From the NCBI GenBank assembly GCA_020426925.1, contig JAGQPC010000268.1, positions 1 to 38,396 on the forward strand: a stretch of DNA of 38,396 nucleotides, read 5' to 3'. Every line of letters begins with the position of its first letter. Position 1 is the first letter of the stretch. The position numbers and the translations under genes are program-made. The DNA is from Planctomycetales bacterium. Its GTDB lineage: Bacteria > Planctomycetota > Planctomycetia > Pirellulales > Pirellulaceae. Of the stretch, positions 18,440-37,725 are shown piece by piece. The notes beneath the pieces are model-generated. The model was not told the origin of the DNA. It made no database searches and saw only the letters and a list, made by a program, of their open reading frames with translations.

Positions 18440-21400
18440 ATGCCCAACCACTATCGCTACCGATCGTCGTCAAAACGGCCCACGCGCGAGCTCAATTGGA
18501 AGCTCTTGGTTTCCACGTTGCTTTTGATCGCGTGCGCTGCTGGAGCAGGATGGTGGTGGCACCAGGCACAGCTTCGCTCACTGCGAGCAGCATTCTTGGA
18601 ACGGGCCGAAGCCGCTGAAGCGGAAGGTCATCACTCGACAGCGGCAAGCTATCTGTTCCAGTACTTGAAGCTGACCAAAGACGGATCAGAAAAGAATGAG
18701 ATGCTGGAACGAATCGCGAAAACTCGCGAGCGTGGAGCTGAAACGCCAGACGAGAAACGATCTGCCATCGAATGGTATTATCGAGCTGTCGGTGCGGCTC
18801 CCGATCGTTGCGACCTGCACGCCAGCCTCGCCCAACTGCTCCTGGACACAAAGCAGTTTTCATTGGCCGAAGAGCATGCCGACGAAGGATTGTCCATCGA
18901 TCCGGACAACTTCGAGTGCAAACGAATTCGCAGCTTGGCTCGATTTGCACTGATGCGACAAGGCAAACCGGTTTCGGTTGACGGATTGACCGACGAGCTG
19001 AAGGAACTGAACGCTCGAGATCCCGGCGACGTCGAAGTTGCAACGACTTTGGCAAGGCTGTATCGAGTAGACGGGGCGGTCGTAGAAGACACGCCCGGCG
19101 AAACTGCAAATCGAATTATTGATGCGATGGTTGCGGCAGCCGATCGGGCTCACGCCGATTCGAAGAGCCAAAACGCCGAAGGGATCGACCAGAGTCAGCA
19201 AGCCGAATCCGATGGCGTGGATCAGTCAAAGCCCTATTTGGCTCGTTATCTTTATCGTACCGAATACGGAATTGATGGAGCAGCGGAAGATATCGACACA
19301 GCGGTCGAGCTGAATCCCAGTTCGCCTATCGTTCTGATCACGGCGGCGCAAGAAGCATCAAAGTCGGGCAGCCACCAGCGAGCACTCGAATACTACCAGC
19401 AACTTGCAGATTCAGCGCCGAAGGATCCACGTGCTTATTTGGGAATCGGCCAGTGTTGGTACAAGCTCGGCCAAACAGAAAAAGCGATTCAGGCGTGGAA
19501 CGACGGGCTTGGGAAATCCGATCCGAATGATCTGGCAATCAACGTTCGTTTGGCCGATGTATTGCTCGGATTGCAGAGACTTGACGACGCGGAAACGCCA
19601 CTCGCAAATGTTAAACTAGCCATCGAGCAATTAAGCTCCACTGGTCGAGAGCACATGCGAGATTGGGCGGTGGCGTCAAACGCGTTGCTGCTCGCGAAGC
19701 ATGACGTGGCATTGAAACAATACTCAAGCGCGATAGTCCGGCTTCATCGCGTCGCTGCGACAGCAAAATCGCAGCTGACGCGCGCTGACGGAGTCACGCT
19801 TTCGTATCAAGCGTGGATTTTGCTTGGGCGAACATACGGCATGCTCGAACTTTGGGAAGATGCCGCGATCAGTTTTGATCGAGCTTTGGAAATTCTGCCT
19901 TCGTCGATGGAAACGCGGCTTTCGGCTGCACAAGCGTGGGCCGCGACGGGGCGGCTTGAAAAGGCCATTTTGTTGTGCGAACAAATCGTTCATCGGGACA
20001 ACGCGCCGGCGCTCGCATGGTCGCTGTTGGCCAAACTTCAGTTGCAGTCTCAGCTGCGATTGCCGACAGGCGAACGGCATTGGCAACCGGTTGAAAATGT
20101 GCTCGACGCGGCGTTTGAACGATATCCCGAATCGTGGGAGCTTCCGCTCGTTCAAGTGAATTATTTGATGGTTAGCAATCCGGAACTGTCGAGTGCCGAA
20201 TCAATGCGGGTGCTGCTCAATGCTGAATCGGCCCATCAAAACGAGCCTCAATTCTGGACGCTGCTCGCTCAAACCTATCAAGCGATGGGCCAGATTTCGG
20301 ATGCGGATCGAGCTGTTGCGCACCTCGAGCAAATTACGGGTCGGTCGCTCGATGCGAGGTTGGTTAAAGTTGACTTGCTTACGTCTCGCCGCCAGTTCGA
20401 AGACGCGAAGAATGTGCTGCGCTCGCTAAAAGCATCGAACGAAAACGACGCGCGTAAGCTTCGAAACGCACGGATTCGTGTTGCGGTCGCAGAAGGAGAC
20501 AGCAAGGAACTTAGCAGCGTGCTGCTCGCGGAATTGAAAGACGATCCGAAAAACGTACAGCTCCTTTCGCAACTCGCCGAACTTGCGTTTCAAGAAAGCC
20601 GGAATGCAGACTTGCGTAAATGGGTGGAAGAATTGAAGCGAATCGAAGGTGAGGCCGGTACGCAGTGGCGGTATTTTCAGGCTCGCGATGCGTTGAGATC
20701 AACAGACACAGATATCGACTCGGTCAAAGAACTTCTTTCGGATATTGATCGTTTGAGACCTTGGTGGCCGGGCGGCACGTTCTTGAAAGGGCTGATCGCC
20801 GAATACGAAAATCGTTCGGCAGATGCCGTGTCGGCTTACACTTCGGTGCTTAAGTTGGGGCTGCAAACTCCCGAAGTTTATCGGCGTCTGCTACAAGTGC
20901 TCTATCGAGACGGGCGAGTCGCCGATGCGGAGCAGTATGCTCGGCTCATGCAGCAGCGCTATCCGTTGACTCGCACGTTCAGCGGCAGCAGTTTTGATGA
21001 GAAAGGACAGCTGGGCCAAATGCGTCTTTCACTGCAGATCGCAAAGTCGGCAGTCGAACAGAATCCGAAAAACGTTGACGCAAGGCGTTGGCTTGGTCGC
21101 ATGCTGATGCTCTCCGGAGACATCGACGAAGCTGAGCAAGAGCTGAAAGAAGTGACGAGCCTAGCACCGAATGATTTGCATTCATGGTCGGCGTTGTTTT
21201 CTTTCTATTTGCAGACGAACCGTATTAACGACGCGGCTGAAACGATCGAGTCTATTGCGAAGTCGCAAGACATTTCGGACCCGGAAAAGAACTTCGTTCT
21301 AGCGCAAGGTTATCAGTTGCTTGGCCAAGGCGCAAAAGCGGAAGCTTACTACCAGGAAGTCATTCGTCTTCAACCGAACAATATCGACGCGTTGCTTCGC

Positions 21401-22834
21401 TACGCCATGTTCTTGGCGCCTTTTGATTCGCCGAGAGCCGAACAGCATGCACGGCTGGCAATGAAGATCGCCCCGGAAAACCGTGCGGTTCGTCGAGTCT
21501 TAGCGATGATTTTGGGTAATCAAGTGGACCCTGTCGCTCAGAACGAAGCGACTCAGCTGATTGACGCGAACGCGCCCGATCGTGCGGAGCTTTCGGCCGC
21601 AGATCAGCGGTTAAAGGCAGTGCTTCTGTTGCGGCAATCGACGGATGAAACCGATGCTCAGGCAGAACAGATTTTGCGAACGCTGACGGAAACGCCTCAA
21701 GACCACAAGTCGGAAATGGGCGACCGCATGTTGCTGGCGAGCCTTCTTGAACAACGTGGAAATTCGCAAGCGGCCAAAGAGCAGTACGAAACAATCTCCG
21801 GATCAGAGCCTGTGTCGTCGCGACACCTAGCCGCATACGTCGCATTTCTGATCCGCACGAAGGATTATGATTCCGCCGACAAATGGCTCGCAGCGTTGGA
21901 GAAACGGGCGAAAAACAGCTTGCTGACCGTTCAGTTGCGATGTCACTTGCACATCGAATCAGGCAATAAAGCGGCCGCGGTCCAAGCGATGGAATCGTAC
22001 GCCGCCGCCACGTTGCAAACGGTGGAAGGAGAAGACTCCACAAAACAAGTGATGCTAAACGTTGCTCAAGCGTTCGTGACTCTTGGCTTGTCCGACGCCG
22101 CGGAGAAATGGTATCAGAAGTTCAATCAAAGGTTTCCCGGTAACGAAGAGTATCTTGCCTTGCATTGGGCTCGCCACAAGAAATCGGCGAGCGCGGTCGA
22201 ACTTTGCATCAATTCGGCAAAGCAAGACCTTTCGCCGGAAACAATTGTTGCTCTGGCAAAAGTGCTGATTCTTCAGACGGACGAACCTGCTGCAACTGAC
22301 AACGACGTCGCCGAACAGATGATCGCACAGGCTCTGCAAAAGTACCCGCGCCATGACGAATTGCTGTTCTATGTAGCAAATCTTCGATTGAAACAAGGTA
22401 ATGTCGATATTGCGATCGACCTCTATCGACGTCTTGTAGACGTTAATCCAAAACACGTGTTGGCCTGGAATAATTTGGCGGCGTTACTTGCCGAACAGCC
22501 AGGTGGTTTGGACGAAGCTAATCGATGTGCCGACCGAGCAATCGATGAGGCTGGCTATACTGTTCCGACGATTGTTGACACCAAAGCGATGGTTTTGATT
22601 CAGCGAGGCGAGTACGATGCCGCCGCCAACTTGCTGGCCGAGATCATTCGTTCGCCCAATGGAAAGGACGCTCGGTTCTATTTCCATCTGGCGATCGCGC
22701 TACAGCGAAGCGGAAAGACCGAGCCAGCAGGAAAGTCTCTCGCCTTCGCAAAAGATCTGGGGCTCGCTGACAAGTTCCTTACGAAAGCAGAAGCTCGGTA
22801 TCTGGCGGAAATTAATTCGCGACTTGCACCGTAG
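18440..22834 (+). CDS. Giant membrane-anchored TPR protein of the exosortase locus
   Basis: 1464 residues. A basic N-terminus (SSKRPTRELNWK) leads into one hydrophobic span (LLVSTLLLIACAAGAGWWW), so the bulk faces the periplasm. The rest is dozens of TPR helices: examples are SYLFQYLKLTKDG, ALEYYQQLADSAPKDPRAYL, AEAYYQEVIRLQPNNIDALL and AIDLYRRLVDVNPKHVLAW. No enzymatic domain is seen. In exosortase loci of other phyla a TPR protein (PrsT-like) holds this position and is thought to be a scaffold for polysaccharide or protein export. This one is much longer. It lies between the kinase (61-nt gap) and the EpsI gene (8-nt gap). Confidence 0.87.
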   Translation: MPNHYRYRSSSKRPTRELNWKLLVSTLLLIACAAGAGWWWHQAQLRSLRAAFLERAEAAEAEGHHSTAASYLFQYLKLTKDGSEKNEMLERIAKTRERGAETPDEKRSAIEWYYRAVGAAPDRCDLHASLAQLLLDTKQFSLAEEHADEGLSIDPDNFECKRIRSLARFALMRQGKPVSVDGLTDELKELNARDPGDVEVATTLARLYRVDGAVVEDTPGETANRIIDAMVAAADRAHADSKSQNAEGIDQSQQAESDGVDQSKPYLARYLYRTEYGIDGAAEDIDTAVELNPSSPIVLITAAQEASKSGSHQRALEYYQQLADSAPKDPRAYLGIGQCWYKLGQTEKAIQAWNDGLGKSDPNDLAINVRLADVLLGLQRLDDAETPLANVKLAIEQLSSTGREHMRDWAVASNALLLAKHDVALKQYSSAIVRLHRVAATAKSQLTRADGVTLSYQAWILLGRTYGMLELWEDAAISFDRALEILPSSMETRLSAAQAWAATGRLEKAILLCEQIVHRDNAPALAWSLLAKLQLQSQLRLPTGERHWQPVENVLDAAFERYPESWELPLVQVNYLMVSNPELSSAESMRVLLNAESAHQNEPQFWTLLAQTYQAMGQISDADRAVAHLEQITGRSLDARLVKVDLLTSRRQFEDAKNVLRSLKASNENDARKLRNARIRVAVAEGDSKELSSVLLAELKDDPKNVQLLSQLAELAFQESRNADLRKWVEELKRIEGEAGTQWRYFQARDALRSTDTDIDSVKELLSDIDRLRPWWPGGTFLKGLIAEYENRSADAVSAYTSVLKLGLQTPEVYRRLLQVLYRDGRVADAEQYARLMQQRYPLTRTFSGSSFDEKGQLGQMRLSLQIAKSAVEQNPKNVDARRWLGRMLMLSGDIDEAEQELKEVTSLAPNDLHSWSALFSFYLQTNRINDAAETIESIAKSQDISDPEKNFVLAQGYQLLGQGAKAEAYYQEVIRLQPNNIDALLRYAMFLAPFDSPRAEQHARLAMKIAPENRAVRRVLAMILGNQVDPVAQNEATQLIDANAPDRAELSAADQRLKAVLLLRQSTDETDAQAEQILRTLTETPQDHKSEMGDRMLLASLLEQRGNSQAAKEQYETISGSEPVSSRHLAAYVAFLIRTKDYDSADKWLAALEKRAKNSLLTVQLRCHLHIESGNKAAAVQAMESYAAATLQTVEGEDSTKQVMLNVAQAFVTLGLSDAAEKWYQKFNQRFPGNEEYLALHWARHKKSASAVELCINSAKQDLSPETIVALAKVLILQTDEPAATDNDVAEQMIAQALQKYPRHDELLFYVANLRLKQGNVDIAIDLYRRLVDVNPKHVLAWNNLAALLAEQPGGLDEANRCADRAIDEAGYTVPTIVDTKAMVLIQRGEYDAAANLLAEIIRSPNGKDARFYFHLAIALQRSGKTEPAGKSLAFAKDLGLADKFLTKAEARYLAEINSRLAP

Positions 22835-22842
22835 GCGCGCCC

Positions 22843-23493
22843 ATGTCGAAGCAACGTAACTTGATCCTCGTGTTTGCCGTGTTGCTGACTGTTGCCTCGG
22901 GATTGTTGCATGGCTACATGACACAACGTTGGGGTGCCGACGAACGCATGCAGACCGCAGCTGCGAGGTTAGCGGAGATTCCGCAGGGAATTGGCGATTG
23001 GCAATTGCGCGAGACGAAAGACCTCAGCAAAAGTGCGATCGACATGTTGCAGTGCGCCGGCTACTTGAACAACACTTATCAAAATTCGAAAACTCAGCAG
23101 CGCATTCATGTGACACTTCTGGTCGGTCCAGGAGCCACGATGGCGATCCATCGGCCAGAGATCTGTTTCGAAAGCAGCAACTACTCTATTCTGGGAGCAA
23201 AACGCAAAGTTGAAACGGTTGATAAAAACAACAAACATCACGAGCTATGGGCCATCGACTTCGAGACAAACGATATCGGTAAGAAAAAATTGCGGGTTTT
23301 ATATGGTTGGTCCAATAGCGGCGAGTGGGCTGCCCCGGATCGTCCTCGACTGGCTTTTGCGGGCGAGCGGGTGCTGTACAAAATCCAAATCACGGACGCA
23401 GACCCGGATTTAGGGCAGGACGACGCCTCGTTGCAATTCGCGAACGTCTTATTTCCAATGTTGCAAAAGCACATCATGACATCAGCTCTGTAG
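22843..23493 (+). CDS. epsI: EpsI-domain (exosortase-associated) protein
   Basis: 216 residues from ATG 22843, 8 nt after the TPR gene. One N-terminal membrane span (LILVFAVLLTVASGLLHGY) anchors a periplasmic domain. That domain contains IPQGIGDWQLRE, a YLNNTYQN segment, and VTLLVGPGATMAIHRPEIC with H103-R-P-E-I-C108, the core motif of the EpsI/DUF3485 family. The family accompanies exosortases, sometimes fused to them; here it is a separate gene at the end of the row. Its biochemical role is not established, but it is required for polysaccharide production in some systems. A hairpin with a T-run follows 17 nt after the stop. Confidence 0.9.
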   Translation: MSKQRNLILVFAVLLTVASGLLHGYMTQRWGADERMQTAAARLAEIPQGIGDWQLRETKDLSKSAIDMLQCAGYLNNTYQNSKTQQRIHVTLLVGPGATMAIHRPEICFESSNYSILGAKRKVETVDKNNKHHELWAIDFETNDIGKKKLRVLYGWSNSGEWAAPDRPRLAFAGERVLYKIQITDADPDLGQDDASLQFANVLFPMLQKHIMTSAL

Positions 23494-23510
23494 CTAAATC
23501 CTCACGAAAT

Positions 23511-23534
23511 CTTCGCGGAATTCTGCGGAGTTTT
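23511..23534 (+). terminator. Rho-independent terminator after the exosortase-kinase-TPR-epsI operon
   Basis: A 20-nt near-palindrome at 23511-23530 (CTTCGCGGAA then TTCTGCGGAG, two G-U wobbles) is followed immediately by TTTTAT. It lies 17 nt downstream of the epsI stop. The hairpin plus T-run is the usual form of an intrinsic terminator, although the T-run is only four bases. Confidence 0.5.
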
Positions 23535-23548
23535 ATAGGTTGATAGAT

Positions 23549-23582
23549 GGCGGTCTTCGGCACAGGAAGTGCGACTATCGCC
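23549..23582 (+). promoter_or_regulatory. Structured leader upstream of the deacetylase operon
   Basis: A nested stem can form: GGCG (23549-23552) with CGCC (23579-23582), GTC (23553-23555) with GAC (23573-23575), and GCAC (23560-23563) with GTGC (23569-23572), closing on an AGGAA loop, with bulges TTCG and TAT. A competing stem pairs CTTCGGC (23555-23561) with GCCGAAG (23580-23586). It sits between the terminator and the deacetylase start. Function is not known. Confidence 0.35.
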
Positions 23583-23660
23583 GAAGTGGTGCTCGACGCC
23601 CTTCAAGAATAGCCGGCGTTCAGTCCTGTTGATCGCTCGCAGCCAACTTTGATTCGCAGC

Positions 23661-24548
23661 ATGAAAATACTCAACGCCTTTACGGTCGATGTGGAAGACT
23701 ACTTCCAAGTGTCGGCGTTTGAAAACGACATCCAGCGTCGTTCTTGGGATCGATTTCCCTCGCGCGTTGAGCGTAGTACGTTGCGGCTATTGGAGTTGTT
23801 GTCGGACTACGACATTCGAGCGACGTTCTTCGTTTTGGGGTGGGTGGCGAAACGAAATCCCGATTTGGTTCGTGCAATTGACGATGCCGGGCACGAGATC
23901 GCTTCGCACAGCTACTGGCATCGGCTGATTTACAACGTCACACCGCGACAGTTCCGCGAAGATTTACGCCGGTCAAAGCAAGTTCTAGAAGACATTGTCG
24001 GCAAGCCGATCGACATTTTCCGTTCGCCAAGTTTTTCGATCACCAAAAAATCGATTTGGGCACTGGATATTCTTGTCGAAGAAGGGTTCAAAATCGATTC
24101 GAGCGTGTTCCCGATCTACCATGACCGCTACGGGATCCCGGACGCGCAACGAGACATTCATCAAATAGAAACCAATAGCGGGACTATTTGGGAATTCCCT
24201 CCGTCGGTTATCGAATATGGCAACTTCAATCTTCCCGTGTCCGGTGGCGGCTACTTTCGACTGTACCCGGTTAGTTGGACCAATTATTGGTTGCAGCAAA
24301 TCAACGATCAAAAGAAACGTCCATTCATCTTTTACGTGCACCCGTGGGAAATCGACGATGAACAACCTCGCCTTCGAGCAGGTTCAGTTGTCTCTCGAAT
24401 TCGCCACTATATGAATCTATCGACGACCGAAGAGAAGTTGCGACGGCTGGCGAGCACTTTTCAGTTCGGGAGCGTCACGGAAGTTGTCGAACAAGCCGCG
24501 TGCACCGTTCCGAATCACGTGTATCAGCTTGCTAACGTTCACGCATAG
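23661..24548 (+). CDS. Polysaccharide deacetylase (exosortase/PEP-CTERM locus type)
   Basis: 295 residues from ATG 23661; a TTG 12 nt earlier is also in frame. A NodB-homology domain starts at once with FTVD10VED, followed by ATFFVLGW, the metal-binding HEIASH83SYWH87, and FRSPSFSI. The C-terminal part has FIFYVHPWEIDDEQP, seen in the deacetylase family tied to PEP-CTERM loci. The enzyme would remove N- or O-acetyl groups from the polysaccharide; no signal peptide is seen, so it may act in the cytoplasm or use an unrecognised route. It heads the second operon of the locus, after a terminator and a structured leader, and the glycosyltransferase genes follow closely. Confidence 0.92.
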   Translation: MKILNAFTVDVEDYFQVSAFENDIQRRSWDRFPSRVERSTLRLLELLSDYDIRATFFVLGWVAKRNPDLVRAIDDAGHEIASHSYWHRLIYNVTPRQFREDLRRSKQVLEDIVGKPIDIFRSPSFSITKKSIWALDILVEEGFKIDSSVFPIYHDRYGIPDAQRDIHQIETNSGTIWEFPPSVIEYGNFNLPVSGGGYFRLYPVSWTNYWLQQINDQKKRPFIFYVHPWEIDDEQPRLRAGSVVSRIRHYMNLSTTEEKLRRLASTFQFGSVTEVVEQAACTVPNHVYQLANVHA

Positions 24549-24606
24549 TTGGAATCGAAGGGCGATAATGAGACCCACATCGTGTGAAGACTCGAAGGTT
24601 GCGACC

Positions 24607-25620
24607 ATGAGTGACACGTTGTTCGTTTCTGTTGTTGTGCCAGTTCGCAACGAAGCGAAGTTCATCAGGCACACGCTTTGTTCTCTTATAAACCAGCAGT
24701 ACGCATCGGATAGGTCTGAAATTCTTGTTGTCGATGGACGGTCCACCGATAGCACTCGGGAAATCGTGAAGGAGTTCGCAAAACACGACTCCAATGTTCG
24801 ACTGCTGGACAATCCCAAGCAATGGTCCAGCGCCGCGCGTAATATCGGTATCCGTGAGGCTCGTGGCGACGTTGTCGTTATCGTCGACGGCCATTGCGAC
24901 ATCCCAACGGACACGTATCTCGCGAATCTTGCGCACGCGTTTGAGAAAAGCAATGCTGGCATTGTTGGTCGCCCACAGACGCTAAACGTCGAGCACGCGT
25001 CGCCGCTTCAACAAGCGATCGCGATCGCTCGAGCGTCGCGACTCGGTCATCATCCGGATTCGTTCATCTATTCGAGCGAGAGTCAGTTTGTTCCTGCGTC
25101 CAGCGTGGGCACCGCGTATCGACGTGAAGTATTCGACCGCATAGGAATGTTCGACGAAAGTTTCGATGCTTGCGAGGATGTGGAACTCAACACGCGGGCG
25201 GACAACGCGGGCGAGAAATGCTATTTCACCGAAACCGTCGGCATTCGATACTACCCGCGGGCATCACTGCGAGCGTTGTTTCGACAGATGAAACGGTACG
25301 GTCGTGGCCGCGTTCGCTTGGCAAGAAAACACTCCGGCACAGCGAGTTGGAAGTCGTTCGCGCCTGCGTTATTCGTCGCGGGCCTTCTGCTTGGTCCAGT
25401 TAGTCTGATTTTGCCCTCGTTTTTCTTTTATGCGTATCTCGTGGCCGTTTTGACGTATGTTCTTGTTGTGGCGATGACAAGTGTCATGCTGACTCTGACA
25501 AGCGGCGTGCCGAGTCATTTGTGGCGACTGCCAGCCGTATTCGTGACAGTGCATTTTGGTGCTGGCTGGGGGCTTCTGACAGAACTCATTTTCGGTAAAT
25601 CAAAGCCGATCAAGACTTAA
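24607..25620 (+). CDS. Glycosyltransferase family 2, membrane-bound (ExoA-like)
   Basis: 337 residues from ATG 24607, with GAAGG (24594-24598) 8 nt upstream. An in-frame ATG at 24568 also has a GAAGGG at good spacing and would add 13 residues, so the start is not settled. The GT-A core is clear: VSVVVPVRNEAKFI, VVDGRSTDSTREI, a DGHCDIP metal-site region, and DESFDACEDVELNTR with the ED of the acceptor site. Two or three C-terminal membrane spans (from about FAPALFVAGLLLGP) fit the ExoA-like subgroup. It adds a sugar to a lipid-linked unit at the inner membrane. The gene follows the deacetylase by ~58 nt and precedes a GT4 gene. Confidence 0.9.
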   Translation: MSDTLFVSVVVPVRNEAKFIRHTLCSLINQQYASDRSEILVVDGRSTDSTREIVKEFAKHDSNVRLLDNPKQWSSAARNIGIREARGDVVVIVDGHCDIPTDTYLANLAHAFEKSNAGIVGRPQTLNVEHASPLQQAIAIARASRLGHHPDSFIYSSESQFVPASSVGTAYRREVFDRIGMFDESFDACEDVELNTRADNAGEKCYFTETVGIRYYPRASLRALFRQMKRYGRGRVRLARKHSGTASWKSFAPALFVAGLLLGPVSLILPSFFFYAYLVAVLTYVLVVAMTSVMLTLTSGVPSHLWRLPAVFVTVHFGAGWGLLTELIFGKSKPIKT

Positions 25621-25643
25621 ACGACGAAAGCCGATTTCTGATC

Positions 25644-26795
25644 ATGCCAGCTCCAGCAAGAGTCTGTTTCGTCGTCGAGAATCTGTTGCCGGCCGGCACA
25701 GAGCTGTGGATTGTCCGCTTGATCGAACGACTCGATCGAAGCCGCGTCGAACCGTTTCTCTGTTTGCTTGACGGTGAAAACGAGCTCTCGACAAACTTGA
25801 TTCCAGACAATTGCAAAACGCTATGCTTGGGGATGAAGAGCATTTGCAGTCGTCACGGGTTGCGATCGGGGAGGCGATTCTATCGATGGCTCAAGCACAA
25901 CGATATTCAGATTGTACAAGTTCACCACGCCGATCCGACATATTTCGGTGTGCCAATTGCGAAGCTCGCCGGCGTTAAGAAAATACTGCAGACGAAATAC
26001 GATCTCGGCTATTGGCTTACTTTCCGCGATCTTTGGTTGCACCGGTTGGCTCGTCGGTTTGTCGATCTGACCGTTGCCAATTGTCGGGCATGCCAAGTCG
26101 CGGCGACTGAGCAAGAATGGGCGCCTCGGAACGGTGTCGTCGTTGTCGACAACGGGATTTCGATCGATCGCCTGGCAGAGATTGAACCGTTGAATATGAC
26201 GGATGCTCAACAAGTCAACGTCGGCATGGTGTGCAATCTGCGTTCGGTTAAAGATCCGTTCGTCTTCGTGCAGGCCGCCAAAAGCGTTTTGACAACGCGC
26301 GATAATGTGCATTTCCACATTGCGGGCGACGGAGAAATGTTCTCCCAAGTTCAGCGACATATCGACGAGGCGAATCTGACTGAGCGGTTTACCATCCATG
26401 GTGCGGTCGAGGACGTACCGAGATTCTTGGAAAGCATGCACATAGCCGTGTTGTGTTCGCAGTCCGAGGGGCTTTCGCATTCGGTATTGGAGTACATGGC
26501 TGCTGGACGAGCTATTGCTGTTACGGAAGTTGGCGGAAACTGCGAGTTGATTACTCATGAAAGCAGTGGATTGCTTTTCCGAGCCGGCGATGCAAATGGA
26601 TTAACCGCATCTATTGAACGCTATATTGCCGATCCGCCATTCGCGAATCGAATGGGTGCGAGTGCAAGAAAGGTCGTTTCCGAGCGTTATAGTTTGGAGG
26701 CGATGACAGCTCGTTTCGAAGCATTTTATTCGGGGTTGGTGAAACCACGTTCTTCGCAATCGATCGAACGTACCGCCAATTGCATCGCGACCTGA
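25644..26795 (+). CDS. Glycosyltransferase family 4
   Basis: 383 residues. The N-terminus VCFVVENLLPAGTELWIVRL is the glycine-rich acceptor-domain start seen in exopolysaccharide GT4 enzymes. VQVHHADPTYFGV follows, then the donor half with VGMVCNLRSVKDPF, FHIAGDGEMF, and the EX7E motif E275-GLSHSVL-E283 in front of AAGRAIAVTEVGG. It is a GT-B, probably retaining, enzyme acting in the cytoplasm on a lipid-linked glycan. The gap to the GT2 gene is 23 nt and to the flippase gene 12 nt, so it is inside one operon. Confidence 0.9.
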   Translation: MPAPARVCFVVENLLPAGTELWIVRLIERLDRSRVEPFLCLLDGENELSTNLIPDNCKTLCLGMKSICSRHGLRSGRRFYRWLKHNDIQIVQVHHADPTYFGVPIAKLAGVKKILQTKYDLGYWLTFRDLWLHRLARRFVDLTVANCRACQVAATEQEWAPRNGVVVVDNGISIDRLAEIEPLNMTDAQQVNVGMVCNLRSVKDPFVFVQAAKSVLTTRDNVHFHIAGDGEMFSQVQRHIDEANLTERFTIHGAVEDVPRFLESMHIAVLCSQSEGLSHSVLEYMAAGRAIAVTEVGGNCELITHESSGLLFRAGDANGLTASIERYIADPPFANRMGASARKVVSERYSLEAMTARFEAFYSGLVKPRSSQSIERTANCIAT

Positions 26796-26807
26796 TCGCA
26801 CAGCAAC

Positions 26808-28385
26808 ATGCGCAGCCGTAACATGAAAACTACCGAATCAACCGCCGAAGAAAGCACGCTCAGTGGCGAGGTGCGCAACGTCGGCAGGCATTCAGTGATT
26901 TACATGCTTGCGCCGGCGATTTCCAAGGTCATCGGCTTTCTGCTTTTCCCGCTGTACACCAGTTTTATTTCGACCAGCAACTACGGCGTCAGTTCGCTCA
27001 TCGAAATTGCCATGACGTTTGCGATGCTGGTAATGTCGGTCAACTTGGCCGATGGCATGACCAGGTTCTACTATGCGACCGACGATGAAGGTGAGCGCCG
27101 CAAAGTCGTTGTGTCGGTGATAGCGGGGATCGCCGGGATCGGAATCCCAGCTGTGTTGGTTTTCATTTTGTGCTCCGGAGCAATCGCGAACTTCATGCGA
27201 TTGGAAGTTGCTTTCGTCCCGCTATTGCGCATCGCGTTCGCTGCCGCTTGGTTTTCGATGCTGGCGGAAATCGGTTATGCCTACTTGCGCATGCGATACA
27301 AATCAAAGACGTTTGTCGCGTTAACCGTGGCGCAGATCTTGCTTTTCATTGCACTAAACGTCGTTTTCGTGGTCTTCCTGCAATTAGATATCTGGGGCAT
27401 TTTTTTCTCGACGTTAATCGTGCAAGGACTGCTAGGTGTTGGCATGGCGGTCGGAATATTGTCGGCTTTGAAGGTGAGTCCAGACTGGAAACTATTTGGA
27501 CGGATGGTGCGATTTGGTGCGCCGCTGATGCCAGCCACTGTGTCTCAGCAGCTGAACAATTACGTGCATCCGATGATGTTGCAGTGGCTGTCCGTTGCCG
27601 ATCCAGCTGTCGCGGCGACTCACGTTGGTGTCTTTGCCGCGGGACAAAAGATTGGCGTGGTCGTCAATCGCTTTGTGGTCGTTCCGTTTAACGGATTCTG
27701 GAGGCCCAGACGCATGGAACTTGTGATGCGTCAAAGTGAATCGGTCAATCGAATCCTCGCGAGAATGTGTACTTATTCGTTCGTCTTAACGGCGGCATTT
27801 GCGCTCTTGCTTTCAGTCGCCGCAAAATCCACGCTGTTGCTGATGAACGAGTACGGGCTTGTGAGTGACGAGGCTTACCTAGACGCTCATTTGGTAGTTC
27901 CGCTAATCGCACTGGCCTACACAATTCATAGTTTGGAGCCTCACTTTGCAACCGGCATGCACGCCAGCGGGCGAACCAAGCAGGCAACCGCTATTGGGCT
28001 CGTGGCACTGGCAGCAACCATTGCAACGAATTGGCTGCTAATTCCGAAATTAGGCTTCGTCGCCGCGGCAATTGCAACCAATGTCGGTGTCGTAATTCGC
28101 GCCGGGGCGTTTTTAGCGGTCAGTCAAAGGAAACTGCGGATTCCATACGAGCTTAGTCGATTGGCCATCGCCATTGTCGTTGCGGTTGGATTGTTCCTCA
28201 CCATTCGAACGGTCGAATTCGATTCGACGTGGGCGACGCTGTTAGGTGGCATCGCGATGTCGACGCTATATGCACCGCTGTTGCTTTGTTGCGGGTTCTT
28301 AGACAAAGATGAACGACTGAAACTGGCCACAACAGTTCGTGCCACATTAGCACGATTTCGTGCGGCGCGCCAGGCAACTGGCTAG
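26808..28385 (+). CDS. Wzx-type polysaccharide flippase (MATE/MVF-like)
   Basis: 525 residues; ATG 26808 is used, with another in-frame ATG at 26823 and no clear ribosome binding site for either. The protein has about 12-14 hydrophobic spans, beginning HSVIYMLAPAISKVIGFLLFPLYTSF and SNYGVSSLIEIAMTF, the standard opening of oligosaccharide flippases. It moves undecaprenyl-linked repeat units from the inner to the outer face of the membrane. It lies between the glycosyltransferase genes and the polymerase/ligase gene, completing a Wzx/Wzy set. Substrate specificity cannot be read. Confidence 0.9.
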   Translation: MRSRNMKTTESTAEESTLSGEVRNVGRHSVIYMLAPAISKVIGFLLFPLYTSFISTSNYGVSSLIEIAMTFAMLVMSVNLADGMTRFYYATDDEGERRKVVVSVIAGIAGIGIPAVLVFILCSGAIANFMRLEVAFVPLLRIAFAAAWFSMLAEIGYAYLRMRYKSKTFVALTVAQILLFIALNVVFVVFLQLDIWGIFFSTLIVQGLLGVGMAVGILSALKVSPDWKLFGRMVRFGAPLMPATVSQQLNNYVHPMMLQWLSVADPAVAATHVGVFAAGQKIGVVVNRFVVVPFNGFWRPRRMELVMRQSESVNRILARMCTYSFVLTAAFALLLSVAAKSTLLLMNEYGLVSDEAYLDAHLVVPLIALAYTIHSLEPHFATGMHASGRTKQATAIGLVALAATIATNWLLIPKLGFVAAAIATNVGVVIRAGAFLAVSQRKLRIPYELSRLAIAIVVAVGLFLTIRTVEFDSTWATLLGGIAMSTLYAPLLLCCGFLDKDERLKLATTVRATLARFRAARQATG

Positions 28386-28393
28386 GGTTTTTC

Positions 28394-29797
28394 ATGGTAA
28401 TCGCATCCGGCTACTCTCCGCCTGACATACACGAATCGCACGACGATGCGATCGCTGATGTGTTGGACGAACTAACCCCGATTCTCGATGAAGACCCGAG
28501 TAACGCTCGTTGGTCGCGAGCTCCCGCGTTATGGTTGGTTGCTGTTTACATCGGACTGTTCATCATTCGACCATGGGAAGTGATTGCTCCTTGGTTGGGC
28601 GACTTGAGATTTGAAAAGGTCTATGCGATTGGAATGATCGCGGTTGTCGCATTGACTGGCAGAAAATGGAAGCCAACCGCGCAGTGTATCAGCGTGATTG
28701 CTTTTGCCAGTGCGGTTGCACTGTCGGCGGTCTTCGCATGGAATTCGGCGTTGTCGTGGGAGCCTCTTTATCGGTATGCCACAGTTGTTGTAACGTACTT
28801 TCTGTTTGTTTCTGTCATTCGGCAAGCAGTGGACCTTTACTTTCTGATCATGACCTATGTTGGCGTCATGTGGGTTTATATCGCGAAGTCACTTTGGGAG
28901 TACTTCGTTAACGACCGACACGAATTCGCTCAGAATGTTCCACGACTCGTGGGTATCGATCTAACGTACGGTGAAACGAATGCCGTCGCGATGTCAGTAG
29001 TGCTTTCGTTACCTTTCTGGATGTTTCTGTGGCGACGACGCAAGAGCCTGACAACCGATTGGCCATCGTCTTGGTCGAAAGGGTACGTGGCCGCGGTCGC
29101 TACGTATCCGGTACTGGCGGTCACGGCCGTGTTGCTCACCAACAGTCGAGCTGGAATGCTCGGCACGGGAATGTTTGTTGTTCTCGCTCACATTCGATCG
29201 ACGCGAAAGACGTCTTGGGCGAAATCGGCGGCCATGGGGTTTGCGTTGATCGTGCTGCTGTGGATCGTCGCGCCGCAGCAACAAAAGGACCGGCTTAGTA
29301 CGCTGTGGGACCCGTCTTCCGGTCCAAGCAACGCGCACGCGTCCGCCGATGGTCGCTGGTTGGGATTCCTTGCGGGAATCGAGATGTTCGAGCGTAAGCC
29401 AATTTTTGGCGTGGGCATCGGGAACTTCTTGGACTATCGCATTTCGTTTTTGGATGGTGTTCCAAAAATTGCACACAACTTGCCAGGCGAAATTCTCGGT
29501 GAAACGGGATTGGCGGGCGCTGTCACATTTCTTGTCATGGTAGTTTTTAGCTGGCGAAACTGTCGCCGGACTATTAGCATTTGTAGAGGTTCGGCCGCGC
29601 CCACTTTCATGACATTTCACGAACTTGCATTAGCGCTTTCGAACTCTATTCTTTTACTATTACTGTTCGGACTGTCGCTGCACAATGCACTGCGGTTCAA
29701 CTGGCTATGGATAGCGGCGTTTGCCATGTGTCTTGCCTTATGCGCACGACACGCAGACGATAGCGAAATGTCTATCCACGAGCCTTCCTATGCATGA
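28394..29797 (+). CDS. O-antigen ligase/polymerase family protein (Wzy/WaaL-like)
   Basis: 467 residues. After a soluble acidic N-terminal stretch of ~45 residues there are about ten hydrophobic spans. A large external loop contains GIGNFLDYRISF and the hallmark AHNLPGEILGETGLAGAV, as in the Wzy_C domain. Such proteins polymerise lipid-linked repeat units or attach the finished chain to an acceptor, on the periplasmic face. The start lies 8 nt after the flippase stop, and the 3' end overlaps the next gene by 8 nt. Polymerase versus ligase cannot be separated by sequence alone; the adjacent Wzx and Wzc-like proteins favour polymerase. Confidence 0.87.
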   Translation: MVIASGYSPPDIHESHDDAIADVLDELTPILDEDPSNARWSRAPALWLVAVYIGLFIIRPWEVIAPWLGDLRFEKVYAIGMIAVVALTGRKWKPTAQCISVIAFASAVALSAVFAWNSALSWEPLYRYATVVVTYFLFVSVIRQAVDLYFLIMTYVGVMWVYIAKSLWEYFVNDRHEFAQNVPRLVGIDLTYGETNAVAMSVVLSLPFWMFLWRRRKSLTTDWPSSWSKGYVAAVATYPVLAVTAVLLTNSRAGMLGTGMFVVLAHIRSTRKTSWAKSAAMGFALIVLLWIVAPQQQKDRLSTLWDPSSGPSNAHASADGRWLGFLAGIEMFERKPIFGVGIGNFLDYRISFLDGVPKIAHNLPGEILGETGLAGAVTFLVMVVFSWRNCRRTISICRGSAAPTFMTFHELALALSNSILLLLLFGLSLHNALRFNWLWIAAFAMCLALCARHADDSEMSIHEPSYA

Positions 29798-30845
29798 TAC
29801 CCATCCGATTGTCGACATCTTTCGCGAACGCTATGAAGCTCAGTTTGGCGAAGTGGTTCGCTCGGTTCGCGTCGTCGAGTTTTGGGCAAGAACGTTTTCA
29901 GAAATCTACCTGCTTGAGTTCACGACAGATTCCGAGCCGCGACGAATTATCGGTAAGCGGATCATTCATCATGCCAGCAACGACGTTTACACAGATCGCG
30001 GGAATCCGGCGCAGATTGAGTTCGACGCTTTGAATTCGCTCGATTTCTCAAGCATTGAAAACTGCAACGTTCCGACACCTTGGTTGATCGACACCGAGAA
30101 GCAATGCTATTTCATGGACTTTGTCGACGGCGCAGAATTGGAATCGTTGATGGGGAATCTTCGGTTCTTCGTGCCGCGAACATCGTTCCTGCAGTTGGGA
30201 CAAGTCTATTTTCAAGCAGGCCGTTGGCTGTCTCACTTCCAGCGTTTGACTAACATCGAATTCTCTGATGAACGAGCACTCGAATCGGTTGTTTTGCACT
30301 GCAATCATCGGTTGCAGATGATTGCGGAGTCTCGCGACTATCGGATCCCGCGCTATTTCCGGCAAGTGGTGCTCGAACAGATTGAGCATCTGCTACAGTA
30401 TATTCAAGGGCCCATTCCGGTCGCTGGCTGTCACGGTGACTTCGGGCCGTGGAACATGATCATGCGAGGCGACGAGCTCACGGTCATCGACTTTTATTCG
30501 TTTCGGCGTGAATTCATCGCGATCGATCCGACCAACATTTTGGTCAACTTGGAGAACCAACGGGCCGCACCCAGCTTTAGCCGCCGTAGGATCGATTTGC
30601 TCGCTCGTCAATTCATTGCAGGCTATGGTGTCCAGCACGAACTGGATCTCGCTGCTTTAGAAATTGCCGAGATTTTTTACCGCGTTTGCAGCATCCACGG
30701 TAGCATTATTTCCAAGGGCGATCATTTGCGTGAGCGCCTGCGAACTCATCGAATTCTACGACGCAACCTTTCGTGGTTAATGAATGCGAACCAACGGCAA
30801 TCGGTTTGGAACAAAATCTCGTCCAGAACTGCGTGCCTGGCATAA
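29790..30845 (+). CDS. APH-fold phosphotransferase in the polysaccharide operon
   Basis: 351 residues from ATG 29790, which overlaps the ligase stop by 8 nt. Upstream in-frame starts lie inside the ligase gene and are not favoured. The catalytic loop is H215-G-D-F-G-P-W-N, followed by the metal-binding V-I-D234-F-Y segment, typical of the aminoglycoside phosphotransferase/choline kinase fold. It would transfer phosphate from ATP to a small molecule in the cytoplasm. Its position inside a polysaccharide operon suggests a sugar kinase or a kinase for a phospho-substituent. It is the third such gene in the window. Substrate unknown. Confidence 0.82.
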   Translation: MHDTHPIVDIFRERYEAQFGEVVRSVRVVEFWARTFSEIYLLEFTTDSEPRRIIGKRIIHHASNDVYTDRGNPAQIEFDALNSLDFSSIENCNVPTPWLIDTEKQCYFMDFVDGAELESLMGNLRFFVPRTSFLQLGQVYFQAGRWLSHFQRLTNIEFSDERALESVVLHCNHRLQMIAESRDYRIPRYFRQVVLEQIEHLLQYIQGPIPVAGCHGDFGPWNMIMRGDELTVIDFYSFRREFIAIDPTNILVNLENQRAAPSFSRRRIDLLARQFIAGYGVQHELDLAALEIAEIFYRVCSIHGSIISKGDHLRERLRTHRILRRNLSWLMNANQRQSVWNKISSRTACLA

Positions 30846-33192: not shown

Positions 33193-35187
33193 ATGACTCA
33201 CCGGAAACGAAACGCCTCAAGAAGATCGCAATCATCTGAACGTCGGTACGGGTGGCGGTTCTACTACGCTGGATTAATGTTGCTGGCTGCTTTGGTGGTG
33301 ATCGGAGTTATGATTCACAGGGCTCGAGAAACTTCTCGTAATGCCCCAAGTGATTCGGTCTCACTTCGATTGGCTGATGCAAGGCCCCATGTGTCGACTT
33401 TGGACAAATCGGTTGACGCTTCAACTTCACCGTGGAGCGGAATTGACGATCCCAGTAGCGATGGCTGGGACAGCGAAGTATTCAGTGCTCTGGCGACCCA
33501 GCAGCTAAATAGGATCGGCAAGTTCCTGACGCAGGCTAATCCGATCGACAAGCAGGAGCTGAAATCGTTGCTGGCTGCAACATTCCGTTGCGAAGATCTG
33601 CTTCCACTGTTATCCGAGTGCTACCGCGACGAGGCGTTGATTGTCGAACGAATGGAAGGCGAAACGCAGACGTCCAGCAATGACTCGTCGCCGCAATCAA
33701 TTCAAGGTTTGGCATTCCACGGAGTGGATGGGATGCTTCAGGCATTATCTCAATTTAAGACGCTGTTGGCAGACACGGACGCAAGCCATTCTAAATTCAA
33801 AGTGTTTCGAGTTGAGCAGTCTTCCGAAGGCATTACGACTCGACAGTATTTTTCCCTGTCGGGTCATGGCTCACGACGAACGATCCAGCATAACGCCACA
33901 TGGTCGGCGCGGTGGCAGCCGAGCGAGGATGGCAAGCGTCCCCGCCTACTTTCCATCAGTGTGGAAGATGTTGAGCAAGTGAGCACACATGGGGCGCAAC
34001 GAAGCAAGCTCTTTTCGGACTGTACCGAATCGGCTTTGGCCGGGAATGAAAGTTATGAAAAACAATTAAAGCTAGGCTGGAATCACTGGCTCGAACGCGG
34101 ACAAGATGACCACCATTATTTCATTCTGTCTACACCTGGTCTCGCAATCGGCGACGTTGATGGTGACGGCTTGGATGATTTGTATCTGTGTCAAGAAGGA
34201 GGACTTCCCAATCGCCTGTTTCGTCAACAGATGGACGGAACGCTGCTCGACATTTCTGAAGAAGCGGGCGTCGACTTGCTGGAAAACTCTCGGTCAGCAC
34301 TCCTGGTCGACTTGGACAATGATGGTGATCAAGACTTGGTTGTTGCGGTCCTCGGTGGCATCGTTATCGCGAAAGGAAATGGACTCGGGGAGTTTTCGAT
34401 CCATGATGTCTTGCCAACTGCGGATGATGTGATGTCTCTTTCGGCCGCCGATTTCGATCAGGACGGGCGACTTGATGTTTACGTCTGCGCGTATGCCCCA
34501 AGTAGTTTCTTAGAGCAGTCAATGAATGTTTTGATAGCCGCCGAAGCCGAGAATTTTGTCTATCACGATGCCAACAACGGCGCGCAAAACCATCTCTTTC
34601 GCAACGAGACAACAGCCAAGGATGGATGGCGATTTCGCGACGTCACCAAAGAGATCGGCCTGTATGAAAACAATCGGCGCTGGAGTCTCGCCGCGTCTTG
34701 GGAAGATTTTGATAACGATGGCGATCAAGATCTTTATGTGGCAAACGACTACGGACGAAACAACCTCTATCGAAACGATTTGGACGCGAGTGGACGGCGG
34801 CGTTTTGCAGACGTGGCAGCGACGGCTGGCGTCGAAGACAGTGCTTCGGGAATGTCCGTCAGCTGGTCCGACTATGACCAAGATGGTTGGATGGATATCT
34901 ACGTCAGCAATATGTACTCTTCGGCCGGAAATCGAATCGCCTATCAAGAACGCTTCAAAGCTGATGCACCATTGGATGTCAAACAGCGGCTGCAACGGTT
35001 CGCCCGTGGAAACACGTTGTTGCAAAATCAGCGAGACGGCACGTTTGCCGATACAAGCCTCGAAGCTGGCGTTACGATGGGCCGCTGGGCATGGGGCTCG
35101 CAGTTTGTCGACATCAACAACGATGGGCGCGACGACCTTGTCGTTGCCAATGGCTATATCACGACTGAAGACACGAGCGATTTGTGA
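33193..35187 (+). CDS. FG-GAP/VCBS repeat protein, N-terminal part before an in-frame UGA
   Basis: 664 residues to the UGA at 35185. A basic N-terminus and one hydrophobic span (FYYAGLMLLAALVVIGVMI) anchor the protein, leaving the rest outside the inner membrane. From about residue 319 there are six calcium-binding DxDxDG-type blades: GDVDGDGLDDLYL, VDLDNDGDQDLVV, ADFDQDGRLDVYV, EDFDNDGDQDLYV, SDYDQDGWMDIYV and VDINNDGRDDLVV. A seventh (LDWDLDGDLDVWV) is found only after the UGA, in the same frame. The sequence stops in VVANGYITTEDTSDL. This is the CRTAC1/UnbV family. It should be considered with the gene part at 35209-37725 as one protein of 1510 residues, interrupted by the UGA at codon 665. 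Confidence 0.85.
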   Translation: MTHRKRNASRRSQSSERRYGWRFYYAGLMLLAALVVIGVMIHRARETSRNAPSDSVSLRLADARPHVSTLDKSVDASTSPWSGIDDPSSDGWDSEVFSALATQQLNRIGKFLTQANPIDKQELKSLLAATFRCEDLLPLLSECYRDEALIVERMEGETQTSSNDSSPQSIQGLAFHGVDGMLQALSQFKTLLADTDASHSKFKVFRVEQSSEGITTRQYFSLSGHGSRRTIQHNATWSARWQPSEDGKRPRLLSISVEDVEQVSTHGAQRSKLFSDCTESALAGNESYEKQLKLGWNHWLERGQDDHHYFILSTPGLAIGDVDGDGLDDLYLCQEGGLPNRLFRQQMDGTLLDISEEAGVDLLENSRSALLVDLDNDGDQDLVVAVLGGIVIAKGNGLGEFSIHDVLPTADDVMSLSAADFDQDGRLDVYVCAYAPSSFLEQSMNVLIAAEAENFVYHDANNGAQNHLFRNETTAKDGWRFRDVTKEIGLYENNRRWSLAASWEDFDNDGDQDLYVANDYGRNNLYRNDLDASGRRRFADVAATAGVEDSASGMSVSWSDYDQDGWMDIYVSNMYSSAGNRIAYQERFKADAPLDVKQRLQRFARGNTLLQNQRDGTFADTSLEAGVTMGRWAWGSQFVDINNDGRDDLVVANGYITTEDTSDL

Positions 35188-35225
35188 AGTTTTTTTTGGC
35201 GGCACGTCGTGTCGCAATCGAGAAA
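35185..35225 (+). promoter_or_regulatory. In-frame UGA followed by a SECIS-like hairpin
   Basis: UGA 35185-35187 interrupts one continuous frame (DTSDL-UGA-SFFWRHVVSQS). A 17-nt hairpin GCGGCACGTCGTGTCGC occupies 35199-35215: 7 base pairs including one G-U, with apical loop GTC. It begins 11 nt after the UGA. A weak lower stem TTTTT (35191-35195) with AGAAA (35221-35225) can extend it. Spacing, size and a G at the first loop position match the known bacterial selenocysteine insertion geometry. This is inference; a nonsense mutation is the alternative. Confidence 0.5.
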
Positions 35226-37725
35226 TCTGGCAGATGACATCCATTCCAACGACAGAACGCGAAGCAGTGCCCAGCTAACTTCGATGATGCGTAAAGGCAG
35301 GTCGTTCAGTGGCCGCGAGAGGAACTGCTGCTTCCTGAACACTTTGTCAGACGCCGACGCGAACGGACGTTTTGCCAACGTCGCGGCCGCATCTGGTCTC
35401 GACTTTGCAGACGACGGACGTGCAATAGGAAGCCTGGATTGGGACCTGGATGGCGATTTGGACGTTTGGGTGACAAATCGAAATGCTCCGCGGTTGCGAC
35501 TGATGAGGAACGATACACAGCACCAAAACCGCTACGTTGCTTTTCGGTTGATTGGCAATGGGACGACAGTCAACCGCGACGCGATCGGTACTCGCATGGA
35601 AATAGTCACACAGGATGAACCGAACACGGTCCGCGCAAAGACGCTACGTGCCGGTGACGCGTTCCTGTCACAGTCAAGCAAGTGGCTGCACTTCGGGCTT
35701 GGCAAGCACGGCTCAATTAAGTCGGTTCGCGTACGTTGGCCCGATGGCTCAGTTGAAGAGTTCGGTCCAGTCACCGCAAATCAACGTTACCAAATCAAGC
35801 AATCTTCGGGACAAATCGAAAGTTGGGAACCGCCAGCTCGAAATCTTGCAATTTATCCGTGGACGCCCACGCTGCCTGAGCGATCATCAGCGGCACGAGT
35901 CCCTCTCGTGTTTCCCGTGCGAGTTCCAAACATGTCGTATCACGACTTTGCCGGTCGGGATCACGACCTGTCGATCGGCAAACGTCCCCTGTTGCTCAAC
36001 CTGTGGGCAAGTTGGTGCTCTCCATGTTTGGCTGAACTGCAGGAACTAAAGCAACGGCACGAAGAATTCAATGAGGCGGGTTTGGATGTCGTTGCTTTAA
36101 GCGTCGACCGTTTGAGCATTGGCCAGAGCGGTGAAGGCACTCAGGCTCATTCGAATGCTGACGAACGGTTTGTCTCGGAATTGAGCGCACCTTTCGTTAT
36201 GGGCCGAGCACCCGAACAAGTAGTCGACACGATTCAGTTTTTGCACGATCTGGTGATTCACTCGCGCCAGACGTTGCCAATACCGACATCGATACTATTG
36301 GATGGCGATGGTCGGTTGATCGCCATCTACAAAGGTGATGTTTCTCCGGAAGCGGTTTTCGTCGACCTCAAGCGATCAAAGGCGACTTTTGTCGAACGTA
36401 AGACGAATGCGGCCATGATTGATGGAACGGCAATCCGTCACAGTCTGTTAGACAATGTCGCTCAACGCACTCATGCTTACACGCTTTTTCAGGCCGGTTT
36501 TGCAATGCGCAGGGCGGATCGCGTACAGGAAGCGATCAGTTATTTTTCAGATGCGGTTGCCGTCGCTCCTGAATCCGTTACAGCACATCTCTATCTGGGT
36601 GATGCGCTCGTTGAAGGGAAGCGTTACCACGATGCAATCTTACAGTATCAGTTGGTTCTACGAATGAACCCTTGTTTCAGAGGCGTGCACGTCAAACTTG
36701 CCAATGCCTTGCAGGCGATAGACCAAATCGATGAAGCGGCGGAGCATTACAAACAGTCTTTGCGATTAGTACCGGACGACGCTGACGTTCACAGCGAGCT
36801 AGGCAAACTCTTCGTCCGGCGGAAACGTTACTCCGACGCTTTGCTGCATTTTGAAAAGGCCGCGCGAATGCGGCCCGATTCGGTCGTAACGCACGTCAAC
36901 TTTGGTAACGTGCTAAAAATCACTGGCCGCTACAAGGAAGCTGCGACGGAGTATGAAGCAGCGTTGCGCATCGATCCGGATTCTGCGGAAACGCACAACA
37001 ATTTGGGTGCAGCGTTGCAGGCTCAAGATCGTTTTGACGAAGCGATCTCACATTATCGGGTCGCACTGGAACTCGACCCACAACTAGCGGTGGTCCATCG
37101 GAATTGGGGGCGAGCGCTGCAAATGAAGGGAACCTTCGAAGAGGCTGTGACGCATTTTCAAGCCGCGGTACGGATTAAGTCGGATTTCGCACAAGCTTAT
37201 TACGAGCTGGGGAGAACTCAGCTGCTGCTGAACCGTGTGAATCAGGCAGTTGAGAATCTAGAAAGAGTTCTTCGGCTAACACCGAGCGACGGCGCGGCCC
37301 ATCGCGAAATGGGGCGTGTGCTGATCATTCTGGGGCGGCTGGACGAGGGGATTAGCCATTATCGTACCAGCCTGCAGCTAAGACCAAGCGATATAGAAAC
37401 GCTGAATAATCTCGCTTGGCTATTGGCAACAACCGAAGATGACCGGGTGCGCGATGGTCAAAACGCATTCATGCTGGCTGAGCGAGCCGCTCAACTTACG
37501 AGCAATGAGGACCCACTTGTTCTGGATACGCTTGCCGCAGCTTATGCGGAAGTTGGAGATTTCGAAAAAGCGATACGATGGCAGACTAGAGCAATCGAAT
37601 TGTCGCCAAGCAACCAAAAAGATGGTCGGGCTAGGCTAGAACGCTATAGATCCGGGAGCCCATTCCGCGAACTGCGTTCTGAAAAAACAAGTCCAGCTGA
37701 TGATACATCAGCCGCGGAACGCTAA
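35209..37725 (+). CDS. UnbV/ASPIC - thioredoxin-like - TPR protein, continuation after the in-frame UGA
   Basis: The frame is open from 35188, directly after the UGA; 35209 is only the first GTG. No ribosome binding site precedes 35209 or the ATG at 35284, which argues that this part is normally reached from the upstream frame. In order it holds: a linker (SFSGRERNCCFLNT), the seventh FG-GAP blade (LDWDLDGDLDVWVTN), an ASPIC/UnbV domain (about 35575-35815), and a TlpA/redoxin-type domain. That domain carries LWASWCSPCLAEL, its cysteines being 942 and 945 of the full frame, followed by DVVALSVDRL. From about 36480 to 37620 there are some nine TPR repeats. It would lie in the periplasm and act in thiol redox or protein-complex assembly; exact role unknown. 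Confidence 0.83.
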   Translation: MSQSRNLADDIHSNDRTRSSAQLTSMMRKGRSFSGRERNCCFLNTLSDADANGRFANVAAASGLDFADDGRAIGSLDWDLDGDLDVWVTNRNAPRLRLMRNDTQHQNRYVAFRLIGNGTTVNRDAIGTRMEIVTQDEPNTVRAKTLRAGDAFLSQSSKWLHFGLGKHGSIKSVRVRWPDGSVEEFGPVTANQRYQIKQSSGQIESWEPPARNLAIYPWTPTLPERSSAARVPLVFPVRVPNMSYHDFAGRDHDLSIGKRPLLLNLWASWCSPCLAELQELKQRHEEFNEAGLDVVALSVDRLSIGQSGEGTQAHSNADERFVSELSAPFVMGRAPEQVVDTIQFLHDLVIHSRQTLPIPTSILLDGDGRLIAIYKGDVSPEAVFVDLKRSKATFVERKTNAAMIDGTAIRHSLLDNVAQRTHAYTLFQAGFAMRRADRVQEAISYFSDAVAVAPESVTAHLYLGDALVEGKRYHDAILQYQLVLRMNPCFRGVHVKLANALQAIDQIDEAAEHYKQSLRLVPDDADVHSELGKLFVRRKRYSDALLHFEKAARMRPDSVVTHVNFGNVLKITGRYKEAATEYEAALRIDPDSAETHNNLGAALQAQDRFDEAISHYRVALELDPQLAVVHRNWGRALQMKGTFEEAVTHFQAAVRIKSDFAQAYYELGRTQLLLNRVNQAVENLERVLRLTPSDGAAHREMGRVLIILGRLDEGISHYRTSLQLRPSDIETLNNLAWLLATTEDDRVRDGQNAFMLAERAAQLTSNEDPLVLDTLAAAYAEVGDFEKAIRWQTRAIELSPSNQKDGRARLERYRSGSPFRELRSEKTSPADDTSAAER

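Follow-up and report, generated by a model that had tools for sequence, protein, structure and literature searches.

Bacterial selenoproteins of the bSECIS kind, of which E. coli fdhF is the type, share a common arrangement: a UGA followed directly by a hairpin, homologues that carry Cys at the UGA position, and a genome that encodes Sec machinery. The published criteria for a bSECIS hairpin are a stem of 4–16 bp, a loop of 3–9 nt with a G in its first two bases, a loop lying 16–37 nt from the UGA, and an MFE of at most −7.5 kcal/mol (PMC13188914). The same 2026 catalogue lists 119 prokaryotic selenoprotein families and subfamilies, among which Trx-like folds predominate, as anaerobes do among the sources; the two largest selenoproteomes it reports comprise 57 and 63 genes (PMC13188914). 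UGC-containing TlpA-family and WAxxUGC selenoproteins combine Trx-like domains with selenocysteine, and carry the Sec in the Trx active site. The TlpA/ResA thiol-disulfide oxidoreductases have a thioredoxin fold with a CxxC. CRTAC1 (cartilage acidic protein 1, PDB 9etn) and the bacterial ASPIC/UnbV proteins contain a UnbV_ASPIC domain; the human member of the CRTAC1/UnbV family is not known to have enzymatic activity.

Here we describe a gene that very probably encodes a selenoprotein, with a UGA at codon 665 read as selenocysteine. This conclusion rests on comparative sequence analysis, and no protein has been observed. What the comparison does show is that the UGA is conserved at one codon, that relatives have Cys in its place, that the hairpin following it covaries and fits the SECIS model, and that the genome encodes tRNA-Sec and SelD. 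The gene lies in a 38,396-nucleotide stretch of DNA from a planctomycete (hereafter the window), which is contig C191 of its own assembly, G000 (9.15 Mb, 83% complete, 1273 contigs). Its features, all on the forward strand, are as follows.

33193–37725 (+): whole gene, 1510 codons through the UGA, with a predicted membrane anchor, CRTAC1-like propeller, UnbV domain, Trx-like domain and TPRs
33253–33321 (+): hydrophobic segment WRFYYAGLMLLAALVVIGVMIHR behind a basic N-terminus, predicted membrane anchor or uncleaved signal, read by eye from the sequence
34129–35172 (+): FG-GAP blades 1–6 of a seven-bladed propeller, with six DxDxDG calcium motifs
35185–35187 (+): in-frame UGA, codon 665, very likely the selenocysteine codon, within DL-U-SFFWR where a helix begins (model residues 395–406)
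35199–35215 (+): putative SECIS hairpin GCGGCA-CGUCG-UGUCGC, 6-bp stem, 5-nt loop at 35205–35209
35326–35331 (+): Cys712-Cys713 in ERN-CC-FLN, candidate resolving thiol
35326–35511 (+): strands of the seventh blade with a DWDLDGDLD calcium motif, from sequence and predicted model
35581–35790 (+): UnbV_ASPIC domain PF07593 (Pfam E 7.5e-18)
35923–36348 (+): TlpA/ResA-like thioredoxin domain, CxxC at 36016–36027
36480–37620 (+): TPR array, repeat number variable

Translation of 33193–37725 gives 664 codons, one TGA, and then 845 codons in the same frame to a TAA, with no other in-frame stop; the residues flanking codon 665 are DDLVVANGYITTEDTSDL-U-SFFWR. Pfam places FG-GAP_3 before the UGA, and UnbV_ASPIC, AhpC-TSA/Redoxin and TPRs after it. 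An AlphaFold model of residues 270–1090, made with 79 homologues (mean pLDDT 93.6), contains a closed propeller that includes the part downstream of the UGA, and hence spans codon 665. A preliminary description, made from sequence alone, had claimed that 33193–35187 and 35188–37725 are one frame split by a single UGA, that six FG-GAP blades precede it with the seventh just after, and that UnbV, WCSPC thioredoxin-like and TPR domains follow without a further stop. All three claims held, by translation, by the calcium motifs and the model, and by Pfam and translation, respectively.

A seven-bladed FG-GAP propeller followed by UnbV_ASPIC meets the criterion for the CRTAC1/UnbV family, and a Trx fold with a CxxC (W-C-S-P-C, residues 941–945) that for a TlpA/ResA-like domain, a likeness also seen in structure matches. 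CRTAC1 is the best solved match, with the same fold over model residues 1–603 (Z 41.9, rmsd 2.4, 462 aligned, 21% identity). Compared with CRTAC1, the window protein adds the helix bearing the UGA between blades 6 and 7, the Trx-like domain, the TPRs and the membrane anchor, this last being a prediction read by eye; at the position of the hydrophobic segment, a lipobox-like LMSCN is found in the orthologue from G004, the closest relative. Unlike TlpA/ResA, the thioredoxin here forms only part of a far longer polypeptide, with a Cys-Cys active site and the putative Sec elsewhere. Whereas the UGC-containing TlpA-family and WAxxUGC proteins have their Sec in the Trx active site, that of the window protein would lie in the propeller (NF041054 matched only weakly, below cut-off), and against known bacterial selenoproteins generally, Sec would be carried on a beta-propeller rather than on a Trx-like fold or metalloenzyme.

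We found no description of such a beta-propeller selenoprotein family in the literature searched, although preprints and most subscription papers were outside its scope. No entry for FG-GAP, UnbV or CRTAC1 appears in the 119-family catalogue, where propellers, Planctomycetes and Verrucomicrobia also go unmentioned (PMC13188914); NCBIfam has no model fitting the Sec region. A study of planctomycete selenoproteins (PMC4807772) does not mention ASPIC, nor is the family described in its relevant main-text sections, its supplementary list aside. The recoding mechanism is known; the family, its fold and its expansion appear to be new.

Two explanations for an in-frame UGA can be considered at the outset. 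The first is that UGA has been reassigned to a sense codon throughout the genome. We found no point in its favour, and UGA is an ordinary stop in the neighbouring genes, with 11 of the 20 long frames in the window ending in TGA; reassignment can be set aside almost entirely. A second pair of same-frame reading frames in the window, at 4170–7076, meets at a TGA (5526–5528), and was rejected as a candidate: they encode an APH-like kinase and an unrelated secreted-type protein, separated by an ordinary stop. The second explanation is that the UGA is a very recent nonsense mutation, as the preliminary description had allowed, or else an error of sequencing or assembly. That there is a single UGA in one frame is consistent with this, but 26 genes of this genome, and about 120 loci elsewhere in independent assemblies, have UGA at this codon, and selection persists downstream of it. 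Against the orthologue of G004, which is collinear with the window gene and has UGA at the same codon, dN/dS is 0.14 before the UGA and 0.19 after it. A recent mutation is thus excluded, and an error is likewise next to impossible.

The spread of the family bears out this conservation, which exceeds by far what chance would give. In the window's own genome, a protein search finds 24 genes, counting the window gene, whose alignments extend to either side of codon 665 and which have exactly one TGA apiece, at that codon; a motif search adds two contigs that start exactly at the TGA, giving 26 (25 found by motif, plus C542, which is one base off the motif). The copies are 42–64% identical to the query, and are therefore true paralogues rather than strain variants; in the tree, they are scattered among the orthologues of other species. 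UGA members occur in at least 21 of 60 genomes (the window's own and relatives), and G004 on its own has at least 24; its orthologue of the window gene is 67 residues longer, which is about two TPR repeats. More widely, TGA occupies codon 665 in 124 of 131 aligned loci, drawn from Planctomycetota, Verrucomicrobiota and one Acidobacteriota MAG, and in 78 of the best 79 loci retained from a scan of 84,980 species at one genome per species. Of 392 genomes in the phylum, 24 contain the strict motif TTG-TGA-AGY...TGGCG...GTCGTG and none its reversed control, so the family is patchy but widespread. One criterion for a selenoprotein, that a UGA be conserved in position and have coding potential both before and after it, is fulfilled. 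As a separate observation, the two contigs just mentioned (C746 and C970, loci L039 and L041) have the family TGA as their position 1; the assembly apparently breaks at the common motif, and such families may fragment MAGs.

The residues that replace the UGA are informative. In a protein alignment of 79 rows, the column of codon 665 is U or C in every row, and Asp663 and Trp669 are also invariant. Cys stands at the UGA position in 10 distinct genes (L040/L175, L166–L173 and L125), which meets the selenoprotein criterion of Cys homologues. In a subfamily without UGA, with the motif DH/DY-C-THFWCHDIY, nine of ten genes have Cys, from four genomes, and one has Gly; in more remote relatives the residue is Ser, Ala or Gly. 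Among the aligned homologues, none has Trp or Arg at codon 665. Either would be expected from readthrough or simple reversion, and their absence therefore favours selenocysteine. The preliminary description had put forward selenocysteine as one possibility, and had proposed the identity of codon 665 in homologues as the test; the outcome, UGA or Cys, strongly supports it. One long-form gene, L125 from a Phycisphaerales MAG, has TGC at codon 665 with the DNA of the downstream hairpin unchanged, and is nested with support inside the UGA clade of the tree. We note that L125 (5001–6128) thus shows a Sec-to-Cys change with SECIS-like DNA retained, apparently a recent conversion of a kind that is rare in bacteria.

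The hairpin that follows the UGA begins 11 nt after it, with the loop 17 nt after it, and the window sequence satisfies all four published bSECIS criteria (6 bp; loop CGUCG; 17 nt; centroid hairpin of −10.1 kcal/mol). Across 109 distinct 45-nt sequences aligned from the UGA, the consensus is GCGRCA-GGUCG-UGUCGC at columns 15–31; the loop GGUCG compares with GGUCU in fdhF (E. coli records), at a nearly equal distance from the UGA. Pairing is retained in 95.1% of cells, against 90.7% in shuffles, while the covariation score is 0.193 against 0.098 (reached by 0 of 500 shuffles) and the cells changed on both sides number 18 against 1.9; registers slid along the alignment pair at 14–67%. The clearest covariation is at synonymous positions, where the third base of Arg670 tracks codon 674: it is A or G with Ser UCG, mostly G with Pro CCG, and mostly C or T with Ala GCG (pyrimidine versus Ala, Fisher 3.5e-9). 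In L098 and L105, Arg is AGG together with CCU, so that both sides of the neighbouring pair are altered. Synonymous variation is nearly nil at codons 671–674 and has recovered to some 2 bits by codon 676, the frozen codons within the hairpin being Gln CAG (90/96), Val GTC (97/109), Val GTG (94/96) and Ser TCG (86/88). Covariation and codon statistics together meet the selenoprotein criterion of compensatory change behind base pairing.

It is important to note that not every approach recovers this structure. RNAalifold reports no consensus structure for the 45-column alignment, and the evidence for the hairpin therefore comes from codon statistics and from a covariation test of a named structure. 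Folded singly, some members (L017, L130) adopt other structures, and the single-sequence z-scores of the window hairpin are modest (−1.0 and −1.8). A search of Rfam around the UGA returned no matching model, only a chance match to MS2. Outside the hairpin, the Leu codon before the UGA (35182–35184 in the window) is TTG in 101 of 109 sequences, despite there being six Leu codons; possibly it matters for P-site decoding or for the context of the UGA.

An alternative reading of the conserved sequence is that translation ends at the UGA and that reinitiation, perhaps at GTG codon 673, yields the second half as a separate product. This GTG, at 35209, is indeed conserved in 94 of 96 Val codons and lies within reinitiation distance of the stop. 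However, the codons between the UGA and the GTG keep their amino acids while varying synonymously (S666, W669, R670 as CGN or AGG, V672), the Cys homologues are continuous across the site, the propeller would be incomplete without its seventh blade, and the GTG is inside a base-paired element. We consider reinitiation very improbable, and the preliminary description, which had named GTG 35209 as a start candidate, is corrected on this point: it is the conserved codon of Val673 and part of the recoding hairpin.

Returning to selenocysteine, we asked what machinery the genome encodes. It has a tRNA-Sec with a TCA anticodon (69 bits) and a Sec-type SelD whose SCAGU motif contains UGA, with a hairpin of loop AGUCG downstream, meeting the criterion that tRNA-Sec and SelD be present. 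This selD (L179, 1480–2529) is itself a Sec gene whose hairpin loop is like that of the beta-propeller family. Neither selA, sought with two models, nor selB was found in the 83% complete assembly. SelA and SelB are present in most UGA-bearing relatives, and the two genes are adjacent in G004 (C2:238185–241533); a single unassembled stretch would therefore account for the absence of both. Counting any strong match to SelB, SelA or tRNA-Sec, machinery is found in 21 of 21 genomes with UGA members and 16 of 39 without (Fisher 2.5e-6), the latter being genomes with no UGA member among the matches considered, which were not exhaustive. One 99% complete genome, G002 (source of L062), has a UGA member and tRNA-Sec with no SelA or SelB above the cut-off.

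These data bear on the most serious rival, programmed readthrough, in which the hairpin would stimulate decoding of the UGA by a near-cognate tRNA (for Trp, for example) and no selenocysteine would be used. In its favour, a conserved hairpin and a UGA-A context could in principle stimulate readthrough, and SelB and SelA are not in the window's own assembly. Against it, the sense replacements are Cys and never Trp or Arg, the hairpin fits the bSECIS model and resembles that of the genome's own Sec-type SelD, and the genomes that have UGA members all have Sec machinery. Readthrough, which the preliminary description had left open, is thus made very unlikely. For decoding as selenocysteine, established knowledge suggests that SelB with Sec-tRNA(Sec) would bind the hairpin at 35199–35215 as the ribosome arrives at the UGA; from the SECIS and the machinery, we infer with high confidence that selenocysteine would be inserted to give one protein of 1510 residues.

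What such a protein would do is far less certain. In the scheme we propose, the protein would be anchored outside the cytoplasmic membrane, with Sec665 starting the helix that lies between blades 6 and 7, where a reactive selenol would be well placed; helix starts are a frequent location of reactive Cys and Sec residues. Sec665 would react with a substrate, be it a peroxide, a disulfide, or a metal or other oxidant, and a selenenyl-sulfide would form with Cys712 or Cys713, which the CxxC in the chain's own TlpA/ResA-like domain would then reduce again. The TPRs may be a docking arm, and the dozens of paralogues may serve different substrates or partners. At least one Cys at 712/713 is present in 66 of 71 long-form members and absent from 5, whereas both CxxC cysteines of the thioredoxin domain are present in all 71. 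An invariant vicinal CC at 712/713 was rejected, as usually just one Cys is there. Other subfamilies also have a second thiol near the site, U-x-C in a form of about 800 residues and C-x4-C in most of the Cys subfamily. A Sec/Cys pair re-reduced outside the cytoplasm by an in-cis thioredoxin is the simplest reading, though only a hypothesis. That Sec665 acts in redox chemistry together with Cys712/713 and the thioredoxin is an untested inference, made without a Sec–Cys distance; it remains tentative, and we would not rank its chances as high as even.

We lean, if only slightly, towards a bolder reading, that of a widespread and undescribed family of extracytoplasmic beta-propeller selenoproteins whose Sec-Cys pair is recycled by a thioredoxin on the same chain, with some 25 or more paralogues in single planctomycete genomes. 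If true, these planctomycetes would rank among the most selenoprotein-rich organisms. Standard annotation, which takes UGA as a stop, would split the genes of the family in two, and whole gene families in Planctomycetota and Verrucomicrobiota would be hidden by UGA stops. A single unlisted family that spans three phyla and accounts for at least 24 genes apiece in two genomes would change the picture of prokaryotic selenoproteins, and the Sec/Cys site would be a first functional handle on CRTAC1/UnbV proteins, pointing to redox chemistry.

Gene context gives no clear function. When the 5-kb flanks of the 79 loci were searched for conserved neighbours, only FG-GAP homologues and large LamG-type secreted proteins recurred, at ∼19 loci each. 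In the window, the gene comes after an exosortase/XrtA-type exopolysaccharide cluster (18440–30845) encoding a PrsT-like TPR protein, EpsI, a polysaccharide deacetylase, glycosyltransferases, a flippase and an O-antigen ligase; the paralogues in G000 are on other contigs, and no context is common to other family members.

The form of about 800 residues mentioned above is a second UGA subfamily (L058–L066, for example L062 and L065). It lacks the Trx/TPR part, has the motif KPDG-U-xC-[LV]W, and is followed by a different downstream hairpin, GGCUGU...ACAGCC. One of its members, in genome G005, has two TGA codons.
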